Shown piece by piece: positions 352-12,707 of a DNA stretch of 49,958 nt. Source of the stretch: an uncultured Acidobacteriota bacterium (GTDB taxonomy: Bacteria > Acidobacteriota > Thermoanaerobaculia > Gp7-AA8); NCBI GenBank assembly GCA_937870635.1, contig CALMZP010000026.1, positions 1 through 49,958 on the forward strand, in the 5' to 3' direction. Each line of letters begins with the position of its first letter. Positions within the stretch are counted from its first letter, which is position 1. The position numbers were made by a program, and so were the translations under genes. Under the pieces are notes generated by a model. That model was not told the DNA's origin. It saw only the letters and a list, made by a program, of their open reading frames with translations, and searched no databases.

Positions 352-569
352 CACAGACGCATGAAGACCGCCTGCTGGGGATGCAGTTTGGCTCCTACCG
401 CTTGCAGCGTTTGATCGCAGCGGGGGGGATGGCGCGCATCTATGAAGCGGAAGATGTCGTCCTCAACCGCGCGGTGGCGGTCAAGGTGCTTAATCTCGAA
501 GGCAACCCCGATACCACGATGGCGGTGCGCTTCCAGCGCGAGGCGAAGGCGGTCGCCAAACTCGACCAT
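348..569 (+). pseudogene. N-terminal fragment of a Hanks-type Ser/Thr protein kinase, cut at a junction
   Basis: The first ~74 residues match the N-lobe of bacterial Ser/Thr kinases: a glycine-rich loop (LIAAGGMARIYEAED), the VAVKVL strand with the ATP-binding Lys, and the helix-C segment FQREAKAVAKLDH, where PN(I/V) would normally follow. At 567-570 homology stops abruptly and the frame runs on for about 30 unrelated residues to a stop at 662. Those residues are antisense to the methyltransferase gene. The catalytic loop (HRD), DFG and everything later are missing, so no active kinase can be made. The cut coincides with the switch into methyltransferase sequence on the opposite strand. Confidence 0.75.
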
Positions 570-1643
570 GATCCAGCGACGGCGCATCTTGTGAGCCACG
601 GCACCAGAAGTACCCGATCCAGCGAAGGAATCAAGAACAAGATCACCTGTAACCGTTGCTAGTCGAAAAACCCGTTCCAACAGACGCTCCGGCTTAGGCG
701 TTTCAAAAACGTCATTCGCATTCAACGCTTTCGCTTCAAGTTTCGCTTCATGATTGTGACCAACCTCTTCTTCGAGCCAGAGTGTAGGCGCTGGCCGCTG
801 GGGATCATCGGCCAGAAACTGTTTCACATAAATCTCCCATCTACCGTCGCGTCTGACGAAGTCGAGCTCACCGAGTCTTGAGAGCGATTCACTCTGCTTC
901 CAACGCCAGCGACCCTCCGTACCGTCAGGTTTCAACGGCCATACTTCCGAAGCATCCGGCGCCGGTATCGGATACCACATCGACGGCCGATCTTCCCGAA
1001 GTGATTCAGACCCTTCTTTCCTCAGTGACCGGCGCCGGTAATATTTACCAACGCGATCATCGAAGTAACCAAATTGCGCACGGTTTTGAGAGGCGTTCAG
1101 ACGGTTCAGCGCGAACGCTGCGTCTTTCCGATAAACCAAAATGTGATCGTGACTCACGCTGAACCCGCTGGCATCCATGCGCTCGCTGTACACCTTCTGC
1201 CAGATGCAATTGGCGACGAAGTTGTCGCGTCCGAATACTTCGTCTGCAATGACTTTGAGGTAATGAGCTTCGTTATCGTCGATTGTGATCCAAAGCGATC
1301 CGTCAATCGCCAGCAAGCGACGTAAAGCTTCAAGCCGTTCTCGCATCATCGAGAGCCACAGCGAGTGTTCAAGTCCGTCGGGATACTGCGCAAACGCTGA
1401 TCCCGTGTTGTATGGCGGGTCGATGAAAACGCACTTGACCTTCCCGGCAAACTCCTGCTCGAGCGCCTTGAGCGCCAGCAGGTTGTCGCCGAAGATCAAC
1501 CGGTTGTCGAAGATGTCGTTCGGGCCGCGGCGGGCGGCGTGATGGGAGAGCGATGGGTCCTCGAGCAGGATTCGCGGCTCGAGGCGCGCGCGCTCATCCT
1601 TGCCGATCCATGTCAGCTCCAGCCTGGTTCGTCTCGTCGTCAT
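560..1643 (-). CDS. Site-specific DNA methyltransferase (adenine-type, Mod-like), C-terminus lost at junction
   Basis: Translating the minus strand from the ATG at 1643 gives an uninterrupted frame that stays open to the left edge of the window. The early region has IFGDNLLALKALEQEF, then catalytic motif IV as DPPYNTGS near residue 76. The SAM-binding motif I comes late, as LDSFAGSGTSGAVAHKM near residue 335, followed by RRRWIMVE. This DPPY-before-FxGxGT order and the DPPYNTG form are typical of N6-adenine or N4-cytosine methyltransferases related to type III Mod. From about base 560 leftward the frame is antisense to a kinase gene, so the natural C-terminus is missing. The start codon overlaps the stop of the ATPase gene (ATGA, 1640-1643). 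Residues between the motifs, encoded by AT-richer DNA, probably form the target-recognition part. It likely marks self DNA for the neighbouring helicase and ATPase. Confidence 0.85.
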
Positions 1644-4006
1644 CGGACCATTGAAGGCGGCGACCCAGAGAGAGCGGCGCGGAAGGATTTGTAGTGCTTC
1701 CAGAACGTCTCCAATTCGCCGATGGAGACCTTCAGCTTGCCGTTGGTGCCGGCATGTCGCGGCCAGTTCAGGATGGCATGACCCCGCAGGATCGCATACG
1801 AAGGATGGGCCTTTGCGGATTCGTCGAAATCCTCCTGCGCGGCGGACCACAACTGCCCGATCGTCGCCGGCGCGACCGATCCATCTTTCTTGATCTTGAG
1901 TTTGACCGCGCCGCCTCCGTCGCAGAGACGTTCGCAGAGCCAGCGTTCCGCGGTGCTCATCATCAATTGCGCAACGACTTCCGCCGGCTCGCCGTCGCGG
2001 AGGCGGCGCTCGATATCCTCGTCCGGTGGGACGTCGTCCTGGAATCGCACTCCCGTCTCCAGCATCCACGGCTTCAGCCTCAGGAAATGCCAGTTACCGT
2101 TCGATGCCAGAGCAGCTTTCATCTCCGAGAAGAATACTTCGTCATGGGTCGTGACGATGACCTGGTGACTCTGAAGATACTGATCGATCACATGCACGAG
2201 GTTCAGACGGTGGGAGGCGTCGTAGGACGACATGATGTCATCCAGCACCACGAACGGAAAACCTGCGTTGAAGCGGCGGACGGCCGCGAGATAGATCGCC
2301 AACCCGAGCGAATTGAGCTGGGAATCGCTCAGGTATCCGGAGGGGGGAACTCCTTCGACCCCGAAGAGCGAGACTGTCACGCTCATCGACTTCTTGTCGT
2401 CCGAGACATCGACGTCGACGACCGGGACGTGTTCGTCGTTTCCGCGAAGCGCTGCATAAATGGCCCGAACATCGCTCTCCAGCTGTTCGATGATCGCCTT
2501 GACATGCGCGCGGACCTCGGCGCGAATGGCGGCAGCCACCATCTTGTACTGCTCGGCCACCCGTTCGAGCTGACGCTCCTCGGCATCTGCCTTCGTCCAC
2601 TCATCGCGCACGTCGATCAGCTTGCTGACGCTGACCAGAAGGGCCGCATAGGGCGAACCAGCTTCCTTTCGAAGGCGCTCCGCCTGCGTCGACGCATGCT
2701 TGACGGCGGGCTTGACTATGAGTCCCATCTGGTCGATGGCTGAGCGAAGGCTCCGATCGAACTCCGATGGACCGGCCTTCGACTGCGACGCCGCGGCCTT
2801 CACGTCTGACAACGCGTCACGGAGGGCGCTTAACGTTGGATCGTCCAGGTTTTCCAGCGCGCGCGTGACCATCGCGATCGCACCATTCATCGCGGCGCGA
2901 TCCTGAGTCAGTCTGGCGACCGAGGCCTTCAGCCGGTCTTCGGCCTCCGATAGAGCCTGAAGGCCGGCAAGAGACTTCTCCAGTCTGGTCAGGACTGACT
3001 TCCGCGAGACCGCGGCGTCGAAGGGGCGGCTGCAGACAGGGCAGTGATCGTCATGAGCGGCCGTCAGATGGTCGCGCGCCTCTGACCAGAGCGCGAGCAG
3101 CCCGGAATTGCTGCTCGCTTCTTTCAATCTCTCAACGTCAGCATGCGCCGCCGCGCGATGTGCGGACTGCCGAGTCATGGCGGCGAACGGCGACTCATCG
3201 GAGGAGAGCGATCGCAGCGCTTCGACGACCGTTTCGTATTGAGCCAGCAGCGAGCGCGTCGCCTCGCTCGATTGGGCGGCTTCGATCTCGGCTTCGACAC
3301 GCTCGAGCTCCGAGAGCTTGGCGAGCGTTTTGATCCGGCCGGCAGTGACGGACGTGATTTCACCGTTGATCCATTTCACGAGTGCAGGAGCGCTCCAGCT
3401 CTGAAGCTTGCGGTTCGTCAGGGTTTCGATGCTCCGGTCATGAACGGCTTTGGCTTCAGTTGGCCTTCTCCAGTCATCCTTTCTGATCTTCCCTTCGATC
3501 TTCGTGAGCGCGTCCTGTAACTCCGTAAGCCGGGACAATCCGACCCAGCGGGCCAGGATCGTGTAGCGGTCGGCGCCCTTGACGTCGGCCACGAAGGTCT
3601 TCATCTCCCACGATCGCATCAGCATCGGCACCGGCGAGGTCTCGAGGATCCGAATCGACTCGTTCGGAAGTTCCGAGGCGGTGCCGGATCCATTCGCCGT
3701 CCGGCGAACGACACTTCCGTCAGCCAGCTCGAATTCGACCTCGGTTCTCACCTTGCGGCTGGCCGCTCTGGCGTGGACGAGAGCCGATGCGCCGGCGAAG
3801 TTTTCGTTCTGCTTCTTCTTGAGGCGGCCGATCAGACCGTCCGCCGCGAAGAAAAACTCGATGGCGTCGGCGATGCTGCTCTTGCCGCTTCCGTTGTCGC
3901 CGAAGACGCAGACGCTGACCGGCCGCTTGCCGGCCGACATCGCGATTTCCCGCCGCTCGAGGAATCCCCGGCACGCCTGGAGCGAGATCTTCCGGATGGC
4001 GGTCAT
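1640..4006 (-). CDS. SMC/Rad50-like AAA ATPase of a defence-type operon
   Basis: The 788-residue protein has an ABC-type split ATPase. Walker A is GDNGSGKSS at residues 36-44; the long middle is rich in Glu, Lys, Ala and Arg and fits coiled coil. In the middle lies a CPVC pair near residue 320, like the zinc hook of Rad50. The C-terminal half carries a signature-like LSDSQLNSLG near 558, Walker B VVLDDIMSSYD near 585, and a His switch VIVTTHDEVFF. About 150 further residues follow (WERL/WPRHAG region) that I do not recognise. Proteins of this type bind and bridge DNA and often work with nucleases or helicases in phage defence. The gene overlaps the 64-residue gene upstream and the methyltransferase downstream by 4 bases each, so the products are probably made together. 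No nuclease motif is evident in the chain. Confidence 0.8.
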   Translation of the reverse strand: MTAIRKISLQACRGFLERREIAMSAGKRPVSVCVFGDNGSGKSSIADAIEFFFAADGLIGRLKKKQNENFAGASALVHARAASRKVRTEVEFELADGSVVRRTANGSGTASELPNESIRILETSPVPMLMRSWEMKTFVADVKGADRYTILARWVGLSRLTELQDALTKIEGKIRKDDWRRPTEAKAVHDRSIETLTNRKLQSWSAPALVKWINGEITSVTAGRIKTLAKLSELERVEAEIEAAQSSEATRSLLAQYETVVEALRSLSSDESPFAAMTRQSAHRAAAHADVERLKEASSNSGLLALWSEARDHLTAAHDDHCPVCSRPFDAAVSRKSVLTRLEKSLAGLQALSEAEDRLKASVARLTQDRAAMNGAIAMVTRALENLDDPTLSALRDALSDVKAAASQSKAGPSEFDRSLRSAIDQMGLIVKPAVKHASTQAERLRKEAGSPYAALLVSVSKLIDVRDEWTKADAEERQLERVAEQYKMVAAAIRAEVRAHVKAIIEQLESDVRAIYAALRGNDEHVPVVDVDVSDDKKSMSVTVSLFGVEGVPPSGYLSDSQLNSLGLAIYLAAVRRFNAGFPFVVLDDIMSSYDASHRLNLVHVIDQYLQSHQVIVTTHDEVFFSEMKAALASNGNWHFLRLKPWMLETGVRFQDDVPPDEDIERRLRDGEPAEVVAQLMMSTAERWLCERLCDGGGAVKLKIKKDGSVAPATIGQLWSAAQEDFDESAKAHPSYAILRGHAILNWPRHAGTNGKLKVSIGELETFWKHYKSFRAALSGSPPSMVR

Positions 4007-4197
4007 TTGCCACCGGCCCGGCGCATGGCCAGCTTGTAGAGAGAAAGCTCCAGACTTTCGACCCGTTCGAGAGGATCGGGGTCGTTCAACAGAAGCTCGA
4101 TGACCTGTTCGGTCACCTCCCCATCAAGATCCTTCCGAACTTTCAATTTTGCCGCGACCCCTTCGAGAAACTCCTCTCCGTTCATACGATCTCCCAT
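4003..4197 (-). CDS. Small protein of the helicase-ATPase-methyltransferase operon
   Basis: This is a 64-residue protein with no recognised domain: soluble, charged, predicted mostly helical (EEFLEGVAAKLKVRK, then EQVIELLLNDPDPLERVE). It overlaps the end of the helicase gene by 16 bases and the start of the ATPase gene by 4 (ATGA at 4003-4006). Such double overlap strongly suggests it is a true gene and a stoichiometric partner. It may be an adaptor between helicase and ATPase; that is inference from position only. Confidence 0.65.
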   Translation of the reverse strand: MGDRMNGEEFLEGVAAKLKVRKDLDGEVTEQVIELLLNDPDPLERVESLELSLYKLAMRRAGGK

Positions 4198-7055
4198 CGG
4201 ATGACGAACAGCCGTTCACTTTTCACTTCGTGCCTGAGACGCGCCTCGACCGCGCTGATCAGCGACTCCTTCTCGCGCTCGATCTGATCCTCCGCCTCGA
4301 ACAGCTCCCGGCGCTTCCGCGAAACGTGGCTCTCGATCTCTTTCGCTTTCCGCTGCAGCGCCACCTTCGCATCCAGCGTGGACTCGAGGCGCGACTGTTT
4401 CTTCAACGCCGCGATCTCGGCCTTGAGTGTTTTCAATTCCGCTTCGAGAGCCTTCTTGCGATCGTCGGCCCAGCGATCCAGCTTTTCGATCTCTTCCTCG
4501 AAATACGTCGTGTTACGCTCACTGATCGCAGCCAGCAGGCGAGAACGGCTGGCGGCCGAAATTTCGGTGATCCGCTCCACGGCGCCGGCCGGACTCACAG
4601 ACTCCGCGATCACGTCTCCCGGCACATCCAGCATCTTCTCGAACGCTTCCTGGCTGACTTCATCACCGTTCGATACGAAGCCGGAGAGGAGAATGTGATC
4701 TTCCTGCTGCTGGTGCGAATCGAGCGTTACGACATCGGCGGCCAACCAGCCTGATTCGCCTCGCAACTGCTCGACGAGCGAGACCTTCCCCGTCACCTTC
4801 CCATAGTCGAAGCGGACGTGGGCGACAGGCAACTCCCGCGCCTTGATCGTCTTGATGATTGACTCCGCAAGCGGATCGCCGAGGCGGTAGGGGTGATAGC
4901 CGTCCGCGGCACGATCGCGCAGGTGCAGCCGGTACGTTCCAGTCGCTGCCTCCGGGCAGCCCGCGATACGATTCGGAACGAAAAACCGCAGCGACTCCTC
5001 GTCGAAGCGGGCCAGACCCTCGAGCTCCTTCCGGGTGACTCTCCAAAGCCAGCGCTCCAGGCGGCCGAGGCGCTCACCTGTTTTGTCGTGAGTGAGCTTG
5101 AGCCGCTGATGAACCTCTTCATCGAAGTTCTCCAGCAGTGTTGCTCGCGTGGCGGTCATCCGGCTCTCGATCTCTTCACCCAATTCCGCCTGGAGCCGGT
5201 TGAATGCAGCGTCGATCTCTGCCGGCGTCCGGCACGACTGATAGATTGAGGCGATCCGTCGCTCGAAATCGACGCCTGACTCCAGCGCACCCAGGACTTC
5301 GTCGGAAGCGCCGAAGACTCCACTGAAGAGACGGAACTTCTCGGACAGGAGATCGAAGACTCTCTGGTCCGCGGCGTTTCCGCGGTTGACGAAGTTGATC
5401 ACGACGACGTCGTGCTTCTGACCGTAGCGGTGACAGCGCCCGATCCGCTGCTCGATCCGTTGCGGGTTCCACGGCAGGTCGTAGTTGACGACAAGCGAAC
5501 AGAACTGCAGATTGACACCCTCGGCGGCCGCTTCCGTGGCGATCATGATCGCCGCGTCGGTGCGGAAGTGTTCGATGAGCGCCGCGCGCATGTCGACGTC
5601 TTTGCGACCGGTAACGATGTCCTTCCCTTCATGTCGTAGTTTCCACGCCTTGTAGATCTCAGCCGAAGCGGCATCGGTGTTCGTGCCGTTGAACGTCATC
5701 ACGCGTCCGCTGTGACCGTTCGCCTGAAGCAATTCGATCAGGTACTGCTGGGTGCGCCGCGATTCGGTGAAGATGACCGCCTTTTCGAACGCGCCGAGCT
5801 CGCGGAGCTTTTCGAAGCCGGCGCGCAGCGCCTGAAGAAGGGCCTGTCCCTTGGCATTTTCCGTGATTGAGGAGGCCAGATCACGAAACCGAGCCAGATC
5901 ACGCATCTCCGCCTCGACCGCGGCGGCGTCGACGGGTGTGATCTCCCCGGGGGCAGGCTCTCCATCCTCGCTCCATTCCTCTGCGGTTTCGTCCAGCGAT
6001 TCGAAGTCTCTTCCCACCTCCTCGGTCGAGGAGGGAGGAAGGCCGTCGCGCAGCGCCTCGACGCGAGCACGAAGCGACTCGAGCGTTCCCGCGATGGCGA
6101 ACGACGAAGATGCGAGCAGTTTGCGAAGGATCAGGATGATCAGCGCGCGCTGGCTCCTGCGCAGCGCGAAGATCTCATCGCGGCGGAGATACTCGCTGAC
6201 CTCTTCGTAGAGCTTCTGTTCAGCGGCGCTGGGAGTGAAGTCGTACGTCATCGGCACGCGTGCGGTGTACCGGACGTACTCCTGCACCTGCCGGCGCAGT
6301 GTCCGCTGACAGACGGGGCGGATGCGCTGGCGAAGCTCCTGGAACTCCCGCGGCCCGAGGGCTCCTCGCAAGTACTGCTGCCGGAAGGAATCGAGGCCGC
6401 CGAAGAGGTGCTCGTCGAGGAAGCTGGTCAAGGCGTAGAGCTCGAGGAGAGTGTTCTGGAGCGGCGTTGCAGTGAGCAGCACCTTCCCTCTCGCATCGCG
6501 AATGGCCTCTTTGATGGCGACGGCGATCTTGTTGCCGCTCTTGAGGACGTTCCGCAGACGGTGGGCCTCGTCGATGACCACCAGATCCCAGGGGACGGCT
6601 GCGATCATCGCCTGGGCCGTTCGCGCGAAATGATAGGACGCGATGACGATTTTTCCGGTGGAGTGCAGAGGGTTGGCCTCACCTCCCCTCAGCGCCGCGT
6701 TGAACCGCCTCGAATCGAAGATCTCGGACTCGAGGAAGAACTTCTCGGCGAGCTCCTGAGCCCATTGTTTCCTGAGGGTCGTGGGAACGATGACCAGAAT
6801 TCGCCGGCGCCCTTCAGCCCAAAGCTGACTGATGATCAGTCCCGCTTCGATCGTCTTTCCCAGTCCTACCTCATCCGCGAGAAGGGCGCCGCGAGAAAGC
6901 GGCGAACGAAACGCGAACAGGGCCGCGTCGATCTGGTGCGGGTTGAGATCGACCGTAGCGTTGAGAAGCGAAGCGCTGAGCTTGTCGGGATCGTCGGAGG
7001 GCCGGCGCCGCGAGAGGGCATGGGCGTAGTACTTCGTGTGGAAATCGGTGTACAT
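4182..7055 (-). CDS. SNF2-family DEAH helicase/translocase, first gene of the defence-type operon
   Basis: The 957-residue protein has a full superfamily 2 core of the SNF2/RapA sort: NPHQIDAALFA (Q-motif-like), Walker A DEVGLGKT at residues 61-68, DEAH at about 159-162, LLTATPLQN (motif III), and in the second RecA lobe ATEAAAEGVNLQ and IEQRIGRCHRYGQ (motifs V and VI, near 535). A C-terminal coiled-coil stretch rich in Glu and Lys ends in ERLFVIRWEIV. It probably translocates on duplex DNA using ATP. The SNF2 helicase plus adenine methyltransferase pairing recalls the DrmD and DrmMI parts of class 1 DISARM, but the DISARM core genes drmA, drmB and drmC are not in the window. An SMC-like ATPase is present instead, so I do not assign it to DISARM. 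A promoter lies just upstream at 7092-7120. Confidence 0.85.
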   Translation of the reverse strand: MYTDFHTKYYAHALSRRRPSDDPDKLSASLLNATVDLNPHQIDAALFAFRSPLSRGALLADEVGLGKTIEAGLIISQLWAEGRRRILVIVPTTLRKQWAQELAEKFFLESEIFDSRRFNAALRGGEANPLHSTGKIVIASYHFARTAQAMIAAVPWDLVVIDEAHRLRNVLKSGNKIAVAIKEAIRDARGKVLLTATPLQNTLLELYALTSFLDEHLFGGLDSFRQQYLRGALGPREFQELRQRIRPVCQRTLRRQVQEYVRYTARVPMTYDFTPSAAEQKLYEEVSEYLRRDEIFALRRSQRALIILILRKLLASSSFAIAGTLESLRARVEALRDGLPPSSTEEVGRDFESLDETAEEWSEDGEPAPGEITPVDAAAVEAEMRDLARFRDLASSITENAKGQALLQALRAGFEKLRELGAFEKAVIFTESRRTQQYLIELLQANGHSGRVMTFNGTNTDAASAEIYKAWKLRHEGKDIVTGRKDVDMRAALIEHFRTDAAIMIATEAAAEGVNLQFCSLVVNYDLPWNPQRIEQRIGRCHRYGQKHDVVVINFVNRGNAADQRVFDLLSEKFRLFSGVFGASDEVLGALESGVDFERRIASIYQSCRTPAEIDAAFNRLQAELGEEIESRMTATRATLLENFDEEVHQRLKLTHDKTGERLGRLERWLWRVTRKELEGLARFDEESLRFFVPNRIAGCPEAATGTYRLHLRDRAADGYHPYRLGDPLAESIIKTIKARELPVAHVRFDYGKVTGKVSLVEQLRGESGWLAADVVTLDSHQQQEDHILLSGFVSNGDEVSQEAFEKMLDVPGDVIAESVSPAGAVERITEISAASRSRLLAAISERNTTYFEEEIEKLDRWADDRKKALEAELKTLKAEIAALKKQSRLESTLDAKVALQRKAKEIESHVSRKRRELFEAEDQIEREKESLISAVEARLRHEVKSERLFVIRWEIV

Positions 7056-7140: not shown

Positions 7141-7173
7141 GGGATGGGTGGTGCCCAGGGCACGGAATTGAAC
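7141..7173 (-). repeat. Partial duplicate of the tRNA-Phe 3' end (probable attachment-site remnant)
   Basis: These 33 bases repeat 8281-8312 with one substitution and one inserted C. The copied part spans from the T-loop region of tRNA-Phe through the encoded CCA and about eight bases beyond. Only the 3' end is present; the sequence to the right (7174 on) does not continue as tRNA. Direct copies of a tRNA 3' end are the classic footprint of site-specific integration. No integrase gene is in the window. Confidence 0.8.
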
Positions 7174-7351
7174 TTTGCTCGTAACACACTAATACTCAGT
7201 AGTTTATGATCTGAACAACCTTTTCATACCCCAGGGCGTACCCCCACGCACGACAGGGTCGGCGGACCCGGGAACTTCGCTGGCACGTTCCGTGGTTCAA
7301 TATTGCGTAGGCACAGCGGCCGGAATAGGATTTCCGCGCCGGAGGCACAGC

Positions 7352-7621
7352 ATGCTGGACAAGGAGCGGGAGTATTTCGCTCAGCATCAAACTGAATTGC
7401 AACGAGAGCATCCCGACAAGTTCGTGGTGATCGTAGGCGACCGCCTTGCCGGTGCTTTTCCAACTCAAGAAGAGGCAATCGCGTTTGGCGCTCGTGAGTT
7501 CGGTTTGACTCCGTTTTTAGTTCGAAACGTGAACCAGCCGGCCAACGTCGAAGTACGAGTGCCAGCCCTCGTGTTGGGAATCCTGCGCGGTGCCAATCCT
7601 ACATACACAATACGAAGCTGA
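7352..7621 (+). CDS. Small DUF5678-like protein, partner of the aspartic protease
   Basis: The 89-residue protein starts at the ATG at 7352, chosen because GGAGG lies six bases upstream (7341-7345); the frame is open further left. The middle reads DKFVVIVGDRLAGAF followed by PTQEEAIAFGAREFG. That beta-hairpin plus helix pattern resembles the short DUF5678 family (PGKWVAI-type proteins). No membrane segment or signal peptide is seen. Its last 32 bases overlap the start of the protease gene, so the two are probably co-translated. The pair is the only coding content between the two tRNA-Phe 3'-end copies. Function is unknown. Confidence 0.7.
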   Translation: MLDKEREYFAQHQTELQREHPDKFVVIVGDRLAGAFPTQEEAIAFGAREFGLTPFLVRNVNQPANVEVRVPALVLGILRGANPTYTIRS

Positions 7622-8075
7622 AGCTCAGCAGCCAGACGGGACCAAGGTCAAGGTTGATCCAAAGGTCGCCTTGCAGATGCAGGGGCCTGTAGTTCAGGTC
7701 ATCTTCGGCTTGGCGTCCTCTTTCGCGCAGCAACTGATTCAACAAGGGCAGGCTGTTCCGAACCCCATCTCTGGATTAGCTTTGATAGATACAGGGGCTT
7801 CCGCGACATGCATCGACGACTCAGCCGCGAAGGGCATGGGCCTTCCCGTGATCGACGTCGTGGAAATGATGTCCGCATCTCACGCAGCTGTGCCAGCTAA
7901 CGTTTATCCGATCCAGCTTCAGTTGATTGGGACTCCGATTCGGGTTGAGATTCCACGGGCGTTGGGCGCGGAATTGAAAACCCAAGGCATTATTGCGCTG
8001 ATCGGACGTGACTTCCTTCAGAACTGCACCCTTCACTACAACGGATTCACGGGCTCCCTTACCCTATCGATCTAA
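7590..8075 (+). CDS. Retropepsin-like aspartic protease
   Basis: The 161-residue protein has the catalytic ALIDTGASAT motif (DTGA, near residue 67) of single-domain retroviral-type aspartic proteases, and a later hydrophobic-hydrophobic-Gly element IALIGRDFL that matches the conserved ILG strand. One DTG per chain implies an active homodimer. No signal peptide is seen, so it is probably cytoplasmic. The start at 7590 lies inside the end of the preceding small gene in another frame. Substrate is unknown; co-occurrence with the 89-residue protein suggests that one regulates or is cut by the other, which is inference. Confidence 0.75.
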   Translation: MPILHTQYEAEAQQPDGTKVKVDPKVALQMQGPVVQVIFGLASSFAQQLIQQGQAVPNPISGLALIDTGASATCIDDSAAKGMGLPVIDVVEMMSASHAAVPANVYPIQLQLIGTPIRVEIPRALGAELKTQGIIALIGRDFLQNCTLHYNGFTGSLTLSI

Positions 8076-8288: not shown

Positions 8289-8364
<76 letters not shown>

Positions 8365-8592: not shown

Positions 8593-9465
8593 CTACCGCG
8601 TCCGGTCCCGCACCATCACCGCCAGCTCCCGCAGGGGGTCGGCCGCGGCTCGCATCGAGGCGATGGCGGCCAGCGAGGTCTCGACCAGCTCGCCGGCGAG
8701 CTGCCTCGCCCCTTCCACTCCGGCCAGCTTCACGAACGTCAGCTTCTCTTCGTCCTTGCCCACGTCCTTGCCGAGCTGCTCGGCCGTGCCGGTGACGTCG
8801 AGCACGTCGTCGGTGATCTGGAAGGCAAGGCCGAGGTTCTTCGCGTAGATCTCGATGCGGCGGACGGTGGAGACATCGGCGTTCGCGAGCATCGCTCCCA
8901 GCGCCGCGGCGGCGACGAACAGAGCGCCGGTCTTTCTCGAGTGAATGAACTCGAGCGTGTCGAAATCGAGCGGCGACTGCTCGCTGTGAAGATCGACCGC
9001 CTCGCCCGCAATGGTCCCGTCCCATCCGACGGCTTCGACCACGCGCTGCATCGCATCCGCTGCGCTCCATCGCCGCGGCGACAGGGCCGCGTGATTGCGC
9101 GAGACGAGTCCGTACGCATGATTCAGCAGAGCGACGGACGCGAGGATGGCGAGGTCCTCGCCGTGCGCGCGGTGCAGTGCCGGCCGGCCGCGGCGCATCA
9201 CCGCGTCGTCCATCGCTGGAAGATCATCGAGGATGAGCGACGAGGCGTGGATCATCTCCATCGCGGCGGCAGCATCGAGCAGTTTGTCCGCCCGTGATCC
9301 GAGCGCCTCCCCGACGGCGATGGCCAGAAGCCCGCGCACGCGTTTGCCCGGCGAGACCAGCGCGTCACGAATCGGTGCGAGGAGCGGCCCCGGCGCGGGA
9401 ACGTTCGCCGCCAGCTCGGCGAGATGAGCGTCGATCAGGGCGCGGCGCTGGTCGAAGTAGGTCAC
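8593..9465 (-). CDS. ispA: Short-chain polyprenyl diphosphate synthase (farnesyl/geranylgeranyl type)
   Basis: The 290-residue length is normal for IspA-like trans-prenyltransferases, which extend DMAPP with IPP in the cytoplasm. The first Asp-rich motif is [11 protein letters not shown] (Asp residues at 80, 81 and 86; bacterial DDx4D type) and the second is [12 protein letters not shown] near 217-223. Both bind the Mg-diphosphate. The GKRVRG motif near residue 40 binds IPP. The residues before the first motif (HASSL) lack large aromatics, so product length is unclear between C15 and C20. The gene is divergent from the chemoreceptor fusion, with only 41 bases between starts. ispH, the last MEP-pathway enzyme, lies 7.6 kb away. 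Confidence 0.9.
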
Positions 9466-9506
9466 GGCAGAGGCGGCGTCGATGCTACCATCCCCGCCGG
9501 AAGGTC

Positions 9507-12500
9507 ATGGCGAGCAAAAGGTTAGGGCGGCGGCAGCAGACGTGGATCCTCGCAGCGCTCTTTGTCGTGCTCCTCGGAGTCGCCACCGCGCTCCTGTCCG
9601 AAATGACCGCCACCCTCTGGTGGCAGGTCATCGGCCTGGGGGCCTTCTGCGCCTCGGTCTGCATCATCATCTTCGAGGTCTGGATCCGCAGCGACCTCCT
9701 CCGCCGCGAATCGTCCGCCCAGCTCCTGAACCGGATCACCGCCGGCGACCTCGCGCTCACCGGCCGTGAGATCGAGAACGCCGTCACCTCGCAGCGCACG
9801 GCCACCGCCCTGCGCGCCCTGGTCACGAATCTCGAGCGGACGATCCGCCGCTTCGGCCAGCTCTCCACCGATGTCGCCCGCGTCAGCGATCAGATGAGCG
9901 GCCGCTCGCGCGTTCTGGCGCGCAGCGCGAACGAACAGCTTTCCTCCACCGAAGCCACCTCCACGTCGGTCACCCAGATCGATCAGTCGATCAACGCCGT
10001 GCGCAAGAGCATGGAAGGCCTCTCCAACAACGCCGAGGAGACGTCGACGTCGGTACTGGAGATGTCGGCGAGCATCGAAGAAGTGTCGCGCATCGCCGAC
10101 ACGCTCGCGGAGTTCGTCGAGCAGACGGCTTCCGCGTTCGAGCAGATGTCCGCGTCGATCAGCCAGGTGGCGACGAACACGGAAAACTTCTCCTCGTTCG
10201 CGACGCAGACCGCGAGCTCGATCGTGGAGATGAACGCAACCACCGGCGAGATCGGGCGCTCCGCGAAGGAGTCGTCGGAGCTGGCCCGTTACGTCACCGA
10301 CGCGGCAACCGAGGGGCGGACGGCGGTCGAGGGGACGGTGGAGGGGATGAAGAAGATCCAGTTCGCCGTCGAAGAAGCGAAAGTGGCCCTCGGCGAGCTC
10401 TCCGAACGATCGGCCGAGATCGGAGACATCATCCGCGTCATCGACGAGATTGCCGGGCAGACGAACCTGCTCGCGCTCAACGCGGCCATCATCGCCGCGC
10501 AGGCCGGCGAGCGGGGCAAAGGCTTTGCCGTCGTCGCCGACGAGATCCGCGATCTCTCGGAGCGCACCTCGACCTCGACCGAGGAGATCCGGACGCTCAT
10601 TCAGAATGTTCAGAGGAGTGTCGAGCGCGCATCCGATCAGATGACGATCAGCGCCGATCGCGTTGCCGATGGCGTCGGGCTCACCGCTCGCGCGTCCCAG
10701 GTCCTCGACAAAATCCTCGAGCTCACCGACCGATCCACGAGCTCGATCTCCGAGATCGCGCGCGCCACGGAAGAGCAGGCTCGCGGAAGCGCGGCCGCAA
10801 CGCAGGCCATCGAGGAAGTCACGAAGATGGTGCAGCAGACCGCGTCGGCAACGCAGCAGCAGTCGCAGACCGCGCGCAAGGTCGGCGAACAGACGTCGAT
10901 GGTGCGCGATTACACCAAGCATCTCAAGCGGGCGATGGTCGAACAGGAACATGGCAGCCGGGCCATCACCACCTCGATGCAGAACATCTCCGGGCTTGTC
11001 CAGCAGGTGCTCGAAGCGACGTCGGTTCTCGCCTCGGAAAGCTCGGCGATCGTGAAGGCGATGGATGTCATCCAGCGCGGCTCGCGCGAGAGCAGCTTCG
11101 GGGTCGGCGATCTGAACCAGATGGCGTCGGCGCTGAGCCACGAATCGTCGCTGCTGAACCAGGAGCTCGCCCGTTTCTCGCTCCCGACCCCGAAAGAAGG
11201 CGGATCGCTGACGACGTCCACGATCCTCTGGCAGCAGCTGACGTTCGATCCAATCTACACGTCGGCGGCCGCTCTCGGATTCATGGCCAAGGCGGTCCAC
11301 GCCAAACTCGTCACGTATGGTGAAGGCGCCGAGCTGCGTCCCGAGCTCGCCGAGCGGTGGGACGTGCTCGAAGGCGGCCGCATCTACCGTTTCTATCTGC
11401 GCCGCGACGTGAAGTTCCACAACGGCCGTCCCTTCGAAGCGAAGGACGTGTACGAGAGTTTTCTGCGGTTGCTTCTTCCGCAGAACAAGTCGGCGGCGAG
11501 CTGGATCATGCGTTACGTCGTCGGAGCGGAGGACGTCATGTCCGGCCGCAGCAAGTCGCTCCCGGGAATCATCGTCCGCGACCCGCACACCGTCGAGATC
11601 CAGCTCGAGGAGCCGCTGGCCTTCTTCGTGGCGCTTCTCTCGATGCACGAATGCGGCATCGTGCCGGTCGAAGAAACCCGCGATCCGGAGACGTTCCGCC
11701 TTCGCGCAGCGGGTGCGGGGCCGTACCGGATCGAGGAAGCGGTCGAAGGACAGCGCGTGCGGCTGCGGAAGCACCGCGAGCATTTCGTTGCCGGACAGCC
11801 GCTGCTCGACGAGCTGGTGTTCCGCCTCGATCTCCGCAGCACGCGCGAGGTGTCCGACGCATTCCTGCGCGGAGAGCTCGACATCGCGCACGGCATTCCC
11901 CTGCCGGTCGTCAAGGAGATCAGAAACGACCCGCGCTTCGCCCCTTACCTGCTCCAGACGATCCAGCTGCACACGTCGTATTTCGGATATGACTCCTCGA
12001 CCGCGCCCTTCGATAAGACCGAGGTGCGGCAGGCCGTGGCATATGCGATCGATCGCGACCGGATCAACGACCGCGTCTTCGCGGGTCTCGGCGTTACGGC
12101 CCGAGGTCTCCTGCCGCCGGGACTCCTCGGATACGACGCCAATCTTCGCGGACAGCTCCATGATCCCGACCGGGCGCGCTCGCTCATGCGCAAGGGTGGG
12201 TATCCGGCCGGGTTCACCGTCGAGTACAGGACGTGGGAGACGGACGAGTTCAACAACTCGGGCATGGTGCCGCTGATCATCGAAGACCTCGAAAAGATCG
12301 GGATCCGCGTCAACGTCACCCGTCACTCGACCGCGGAAGCGCGCAAGCCGCTGCAATCGCCGGGACACGGAAACGTGTTCTGCGGCAACTGGTACGCCGA
12401 CTTCCCCGACTCCGACAACTTCTTTTTCATTTTCTTCCACAGCCACTCGAACGCCGTCCCCGGCCTCAATTACCACCGCACGGACGTCGACCAGCAGATC

Positions 12501-12707
12501 GAGGAGGCGCGGCGGACCAACGACGTCGAAGACCGGGCCACGATCTACCGCGGCCTCAATGAGCTGGTGCTGCGCGAAGCGCCGATCGTCCCGCTCTTCC
12601 ACGAGCGGTTCTTCGTGCTGCACAAGCCGCATGTCCGCGGGGTGCGCACGTCGCTGGTGACCCCGCCGGTGCGCTACCACGACGTGTGGCTGGAAGGCGG
12701 CGAGTAG
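9507..12707 (+). CDS. Fusion of a methyl-accepting chemotaxis signalling domain and an ABC-type solute-binding protein (SBP_bac_5)
   Basis: The ATG at 9507 follows GGAAGG and gives 1066 residues. Two close TM segments (about 13-31 and 38-60) leave almost no periplasmic loop. Residues ~80-540 are a long MCP coiled coil; its hairpin tip near 312 reads [16 protein letters not shown], followed by [16 protein letters not shown]. At the tip the usual EAARAGE is IAAQAGE, so the conserved Glu and Arg are replaced by Ile and Gln. From about 561 ([12 protein letters not shown]) to the end is a complete family 5 peptide/nickel-type binding protein ([55 protein letters not shown]). With two N-terminal TM helices the binding domain should be cytoplasmic, opposite to normal solute-binding proteins. 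No chemotaxis or ABC permease genes are nearby. Confidence 0.85.

Follow-up and report, generated by a model that had tools for sequence, protein, structure and literature searches.

What kind of system is formed by the four overlapping genes of an SNF2-family helicase, a 64-amino-acid (aa) protein, a Rad50/SMC-like ATPase and a DNA methyltransferase that lie at the start of a 49,958-nucleotide stretch of DNA (the window; contig CALMZP010000026.1, assembly GCA_937870635.1) from an uncultured Acidobacteriota bacterium? A preliminary description, made from the letters alone, had seen a single operon with a good promoter and no recognisable nuclease, which fitted no defence system that could be named. 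Its inventory stands, since all four reading frames are present, domain profiles agree for the three large ones (SNF2 and Helicase_C in the helicase, SMC_N in the ATPase, N6_N4_Mtase in the methyltransferase) and the recomputed junctions overlap by the same 16, 4 and 4 bases. We consider, with a probability of roughly 78%, that the locus is a type III restriction-modification (R-M) operon with an extra helicase, carrying an accessory module of ATPase and small protein between the helicase gene and mod. The helicase-Mod-Res core is known, and the inserted two-gene add-on is the less usual part.

The apparent lack of a nuclease arose because an assembly break hid the restriction subunit. The window is contig C26, taken from its base 1, in a genome of 4.5 Mb and 171 contigs (G000), and the methyltransferase frame, which had been ended at position 560, remains free of stop codons down to base 1, while homology to other Mod proteins stops at about position 545, at MVEFGD. 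An 18-base word, GTCGCCAAACTCGACCAT, fits both Mod on the minus strand and a Ser/Thr-kinase gene on the plus strand, and the similarity to kinases ends there too; the first bases of the window, up to about 562, are chimeric, joined to Mod through this common word. A domain search for the rest of the kinase gave no contig end obviously completing the gene. When the same genome was searched with the complete Mod and Res of a relative, the Mod C-terminus was found at positions 2-589 of contig C47 and the res gene at 1267-3906, in the start region of that contig. Genes of DUF433 (74.1 bits) and DUF5615 (72.8 bits), a pair that we read as toxin-antitoxin-like, lie between mod and res (locus L098, 666-1270). 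Because about 18 Mod residues are absent between C26 and C47, we infer the join of the two contigs, and with it the adjacency of Res to the half of Mod in the window. In a genome of the same family (G230), a single contig carries the genes for prenyl synthase, tRNA-Phe and rnc in this order, all in one direction and within about 1.5 kb, and in two further genomes (G029 and G286) prenyl synthase and rnc share a contig and point the same way, separated by about 19 and 34 kb. The window's genome has prenyl synthase and tRNA-Phe on C26 and rnc on C47, and the synteny of the relatives therefore supports C26, reversed, running into C47.

The two halves together have the features of a type III enzyme. 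Mod, its N-terminal part in the window and its C-terminal part on C47, contains DPPY and S-adenosylmethionine motifs and matches the MTase_III profile, while Res combines a DEXH-type ATPase with an intact PD-(D/E)xK nuclease (Walker A, DESH and PDF..EPK motifs), scoring 732 bits against REase_III PDLC03648, 72.5 bits against Pfam ResIII and 21.6 bits against RE_endonuc, just under the cut-off of 23.4. The methyltransferase had been called adenine-type, which is not established, as a beta-class enzyme carrying DPPY could produce either N6-methyladenine or N4-methylcytosine (m4C). The first gene fits the same picture: its product is 45% identical over 970 columns to an SNF2 protein encoded directly 5' of mod in a helicase-Mod-Res trio on the chromosome of Escherichia coli NCTC86. 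Type III systems in which a further helicase-like ATPase is encoded 5' of mod, including Eco86II of E. coli NCTC86, have been described from more than 500 genomes, and this extra ATPase is dispensable for methylation and was undetected in the preparation of the DNA-cutting enzyme (PMC8259958). To judge by the paper's description, which states no locus tag, the NCTC86 trio is probably Eco86II itself. The arrangement can thus be named after all, as a published type III group whose extra helicase makes it a known but poorly understood system.

Genome contigs were scanned with a helicase alignment and the best 80 of at least 553 relatives were analysed; because these are the loci closest to the query helicases, the fractions given here are not a census. 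Mod and Res are encoded in 42 of the 50 helicase loci having at least 9.5 kb downstream, and a nuclease is thus found where the preliminary description had proposed to look for one, downstream of the methyltransferase in complete homologous loci. A complete locus from the same phylum (G025) has exactly the order helicase, small protein, ATPase, Mod and Res, and another (G339) differs by two small genes between ATPase and Mod, its Mod being read in two frames. Because the order is conserved in other genomes, a chance origin of the arrangement is implausible and the single-operon reading holds. Co-occurrence of all four genes in one order is seen in some genomes but does not extend to most helicase loci, with the ATPase present in only 10 of the 80. 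As for the promoter, a sigma-70-like scan of the minus strand upstream of the helicase found none, the scan itself being weak evidence. Such comparisons of sequence establish the gene content, the gene order, the missing half and the swapping of cargo described below, and defence is the best reading of what the locus does.

In addition to the ten loci with the ATPase, there is one (L057) in which the small protein lies where the contig ends, so that about 11 of the 80 have the module. A homologous small open reading frame lies directly 5' of the ATPase gene in 12 of the 12 other genome loci that cover the ATPase start, and likewise in plasmid pairs, such as those of Bradyrhizobium, where a window-type ATPase is accompanied by a 75-aa partner and this helicase is not nearby. 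Judged by these neighbourhoods, the 64-aa protein and the ATPase are a separable module. The small protein, which has no match in three profile libraries and belongs to no known family, had been suggested as a marker of the system; it does mark the ATPase module, standing beside every ATPase whose start is covered, but not the system as a whole. Viral contigs were searched for the ATPase as well; the single protein found no match there, and an alignment found one that was marginal.

The CPVC hook reported for the ATPase is present, and its residues C322, P323 and C325 are invariant in 10 homologues, in which the Walker A, signature-like, DD Walker B and TTH motifs are essentially invariant as well; the zinc-hook profile reaches 22.7 bits, just under its cut-off of 24.3. 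The model of the full-length protein is poor (predicted local distance difference test, pLDDT, 57) and was used solely to confirm the Rad50/SMC class, its matches being Rad50, SMC and LmuB structures. In the C-terminal domain, R126, G130 and H132 are invariant in nine relatives in the context RN-x4-H, with RD in place of RN in one of them. A model of this domain from one relative (L037, pLDDT 74) aligned to the PDB mostly with HEPN proteins in the best rows (HepT, Csm6, AbiA, AbiV and others, Z 4.6-7.5); by Foldseek alone the domain had no significant match, and the HEPN reading is based on this second structural alignment together with the motif. HEPN RNases use an Rx4-6H motif, and the ABC-HEPN protein PrrC, encoded within an R-M operon, serves there as a second line of defence (PMC3710099); a PrrC mechanism is therefore proposed for the relatives' ATPases, most of which, by analogy, their motif and HEPN-like fold suggest to be back-up suicide RNases of the PrrC/RloC kind.

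Several observations weigh against this interpretation of the locus and its add-on. The join spans a gap of about 18 residues in Mod, and two loci (L016 and L024) have helicase, small protein and ATPase but, over about 10 kb downstream, neither Mod nor Res. The C-terminal domain of the ATPase matched nothing in PDB or Pfam by sequence profile, and its HEPN Z-scores, 7.5 at most, are modest given that the domain is helical. Furthermore, the motif of the window ATPase is LNWPRH, in which, as in the plasmid relatives, the arginine is replaced and the asparagine and histidine are kept. Because of this replacement RNase activity of the window copy is doubtful, and its HEPN-like domain may be inactive.

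The missing arginine also bears on another explanation, in which ATPase and small protein are Lamassu-like, an LmuB with a reduced LmuC that has no RNase of its own and activates a different effector, for example Res. The best PADLOC match of the ATPase (LmuB, 107 bits), its zinc hook and the presence of LmuAB and LmuACB among the structure matches are consistent with this explanation, but most relatives keep RN-x4-H in the HEPN-like domain and no LmuA effector was seen beside the ATPase among the neighbour profile matches listed, so that we regard it as unlikely. It is more doubtful still that helicase, small protein and ATPase make up a self-sufficient defence system, with Mod and Res as mere neighbours. 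The two loci without Mod and Res would fit such a system, as would the overlapping and always co-occurring genes of small protein and ATPase; against it stand the rarity of the ATPase among helicase loci, compared with the frequency of Mod-Res in long loci, and the plasmid pairs that lack this helicase nearby. A variant of class 1 DISARM, composed of DrmD and a methyltransferase, is hardly credible: DrmD gives the best PADLOC (718 bits) and NCBIfam matches of the helicase, but the latter misses the DrmD_b equivalog cut-off (726 against 950 bits), Res is of type III, and no protein with DUF1998/MZB, the domain of DrmB, was found in the window's genome or in G025. The exclusion of DISARM and BREX in the preliminary description is in keeping with these results, the genes of the locus matching SNF2, SMC, Mod and Res families instead of the BREX ones PglZ and BrxC/PglY among the matches listed. 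MADS was considered too (ATPase against mad3, 66 bits; a literature search found no papers on MADS composition), and none of these systems, Lamassu included, was adopted.

As a type III operon with an accessory module, the locus would work as follows. Mod would mark an asymmetric DNA site, and a Mod2Res complex, with Res supplied from C47, would slide along DNA at the expense of ATP and cut invaders that lack the mark; as is usual for type III enzymes, the mark would be set on one strand and cutting would require a pair of inverted sites. The SNF2/DrmD-like helicase probably helps by moving along the target or clearing it, while the ATPase and its small partner probably sense DNA ends, damage or failure of the restriction core. 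Active forms of the ATPase would then cleave RNA and stop the infected cell, by analogy with PrrC and RloC, and the add-on may in this way be a second line of defence.

Different genes occupy the same place between helicase and Mod in other loci, among them AIPR, DUF2130, an IrrE-like peptidase, OLD-TOPRIM, Schlafen AlbA_2, SIR2, DUF1016/YhcG and Bro-N. The gap between helicase and mod exceeds 200 bases in 42 of 52 loci with this Mod type, and three of the ATPase loci have DUF1016/YhcG-type genes between Mod and Res according to PADLOC, one of them confirmed by Pfam. It is conceivable, at somewhat less than even odds, that these loci reserve the space between helicase and mod, and likewise that between mod and res, as dedicated cargo slots for interchangeable back-up effectors, including the Rad50-hook ABC-HEPN ATPase with its micro-protein. 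No papers on cargo in type III loci were found in a literature search mostly without subscription papers. If this is true, the principle of PrrC, a suicide guard for a restriction enzyme, would hold for type III systems too, in the form of a modular platform; the loci would amount to a natural catalogue of the back-up effectors that go with a single restriction core, and their comparison could reveal the roles of the helicase and the small protein. In any case, a seemingly novel four-gene system is explained by an assembly break and tied to a type III group whose extra helicase has been without an assigned role.

The operon lies 3' of a tRNA-Phe gene, which is likely the integration site of an island, as had been supposed from its proximity; a partial repeat of the tRNA 3' end stands next to the operon (Table 1), and in G230 tRNA-Phe is followed directly by rnc with no island between. 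A distal attachment copy was sought on C47 and not found, and no gene in the stretch from tRNA-Phe to the operon was recognised as a recombinase; an E. coli relative also adjoins tRNA-Phe and has a tyrosine recombinase. Two small plus-strand genes lie between the repeat and the tRNA, at 7292-7621 and 7590-8075, the second encoding a retropepsin-like aspartyl protease (Asp_protease_2, 27.3 bits, cut-off 24.3). Further on, the plus-strand frame at 9294-12707 encodes 1137 aa in which, by our reading, a putative chemotaxis-type signalling domain precedes one resembling solute-binding proteins, and in two same-family genomes (L125 and L126) the prenyl synthase gene has genes about as long in its vicinity. 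Separately, similar stretches at about 4440-4650 of L098 and 1650-1830 of L121 resemble a ydaO/yuaA-type riboswitch and are candidates for one.

Table 1. Features of the locus and its surroundings, in window coordinates.
Feature	Position	Strand	Evidence
SNF2-family helicase/translocase, DrmD-like, 957 aa, first gene	4182..7055	-	Pfam SNF2-rel_dom, 118 bits
64-aa ATPase partner protein	4003..4197	-	homologous small open reading frame directly 5' of ATPase elsewhere
Rad50/SMC-like ABC ATPase, 788 aa, zinc-hook CPVC	1640..4006	-	SMC_N, 61 bits
CPVC zinc-hook motif, residues 322-325	3032..3043	-	conservation in 10 homologues
ATPase C-terminal domain, HEPN-like fold in relatives	1643..2143	-	L037 domain model and motif comparison
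Type III Mod, N-terminal ~2/3, DPPY and FAGSG motifs, truncated by contig junction	545..1643	-	MTase_III PDLC03636, 418 bits
Chimeric contig end	1..562 (about)	.	Mod and kinase homology both end at common 18-base word
Ser/Thr kinase gene N-terminus, preceded by another gene, in chimeric contig end	348..~575	+	
tRNA-Phe(GAA)	8289..8364	-	ARAGORN
Partial tRNA-Phe 3'-end repeat, attachment-like, GGTGGTGCCCAGGG(C)ACGGAATTGAAC	7147..7175	+	sequence comparison; one inserted base

Some known systems resemble the locus in part. With PrrC and RloC it shares an ABC ATPase with a C-terminal domain that is probably HEPN-like, as modelled for a relative, and the PrrC gene is likewise embedded in an R-M operon; RloC also carries a zinc hook. 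On the other hand, the window ATPase falls short of the family profile AAA_13 (33.2 bits, cut-off 36), has a separate small partner, lacks the motif arginine and accompanies a type III instead of a type I core. Lamassu LmuB is similar as a short Rad50-like ATPase with a zinc hook, but neither an LmuA effector nor an LmuC-sized partner was seen at these loci among the matches listed. The E. coli NCTC9082 island (L106), with the order SNF2, AAA ATPase, S8 peptidase, Mod and Res at tRNA-Phe, resembles the window locus in the nearby tRNA and in having cargo between its helicase and Mod, and Mod is 53% and Res 45% identical to that of the window's genome; the cargo of the island, however, is an AAA ATPase and a subtilisin-like peptidase instead of a small protein and a Rad50-like ATPase. 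Finally, the Eco86II/BspHIV group, which are type III m4C R-M systems (PMC8259958), has the same order of helicase, Mod and Res as the window locus, whereas the NCTC86 enzymes, a Mod of 1040 aa and a Res of 1126 aa, are of another subfamily (PDLC03646 and PDLC03654 against PDLC03636 and PDLC03648 for the window) and, unlike in the window locus, no cargo lies between helicase and Mod.

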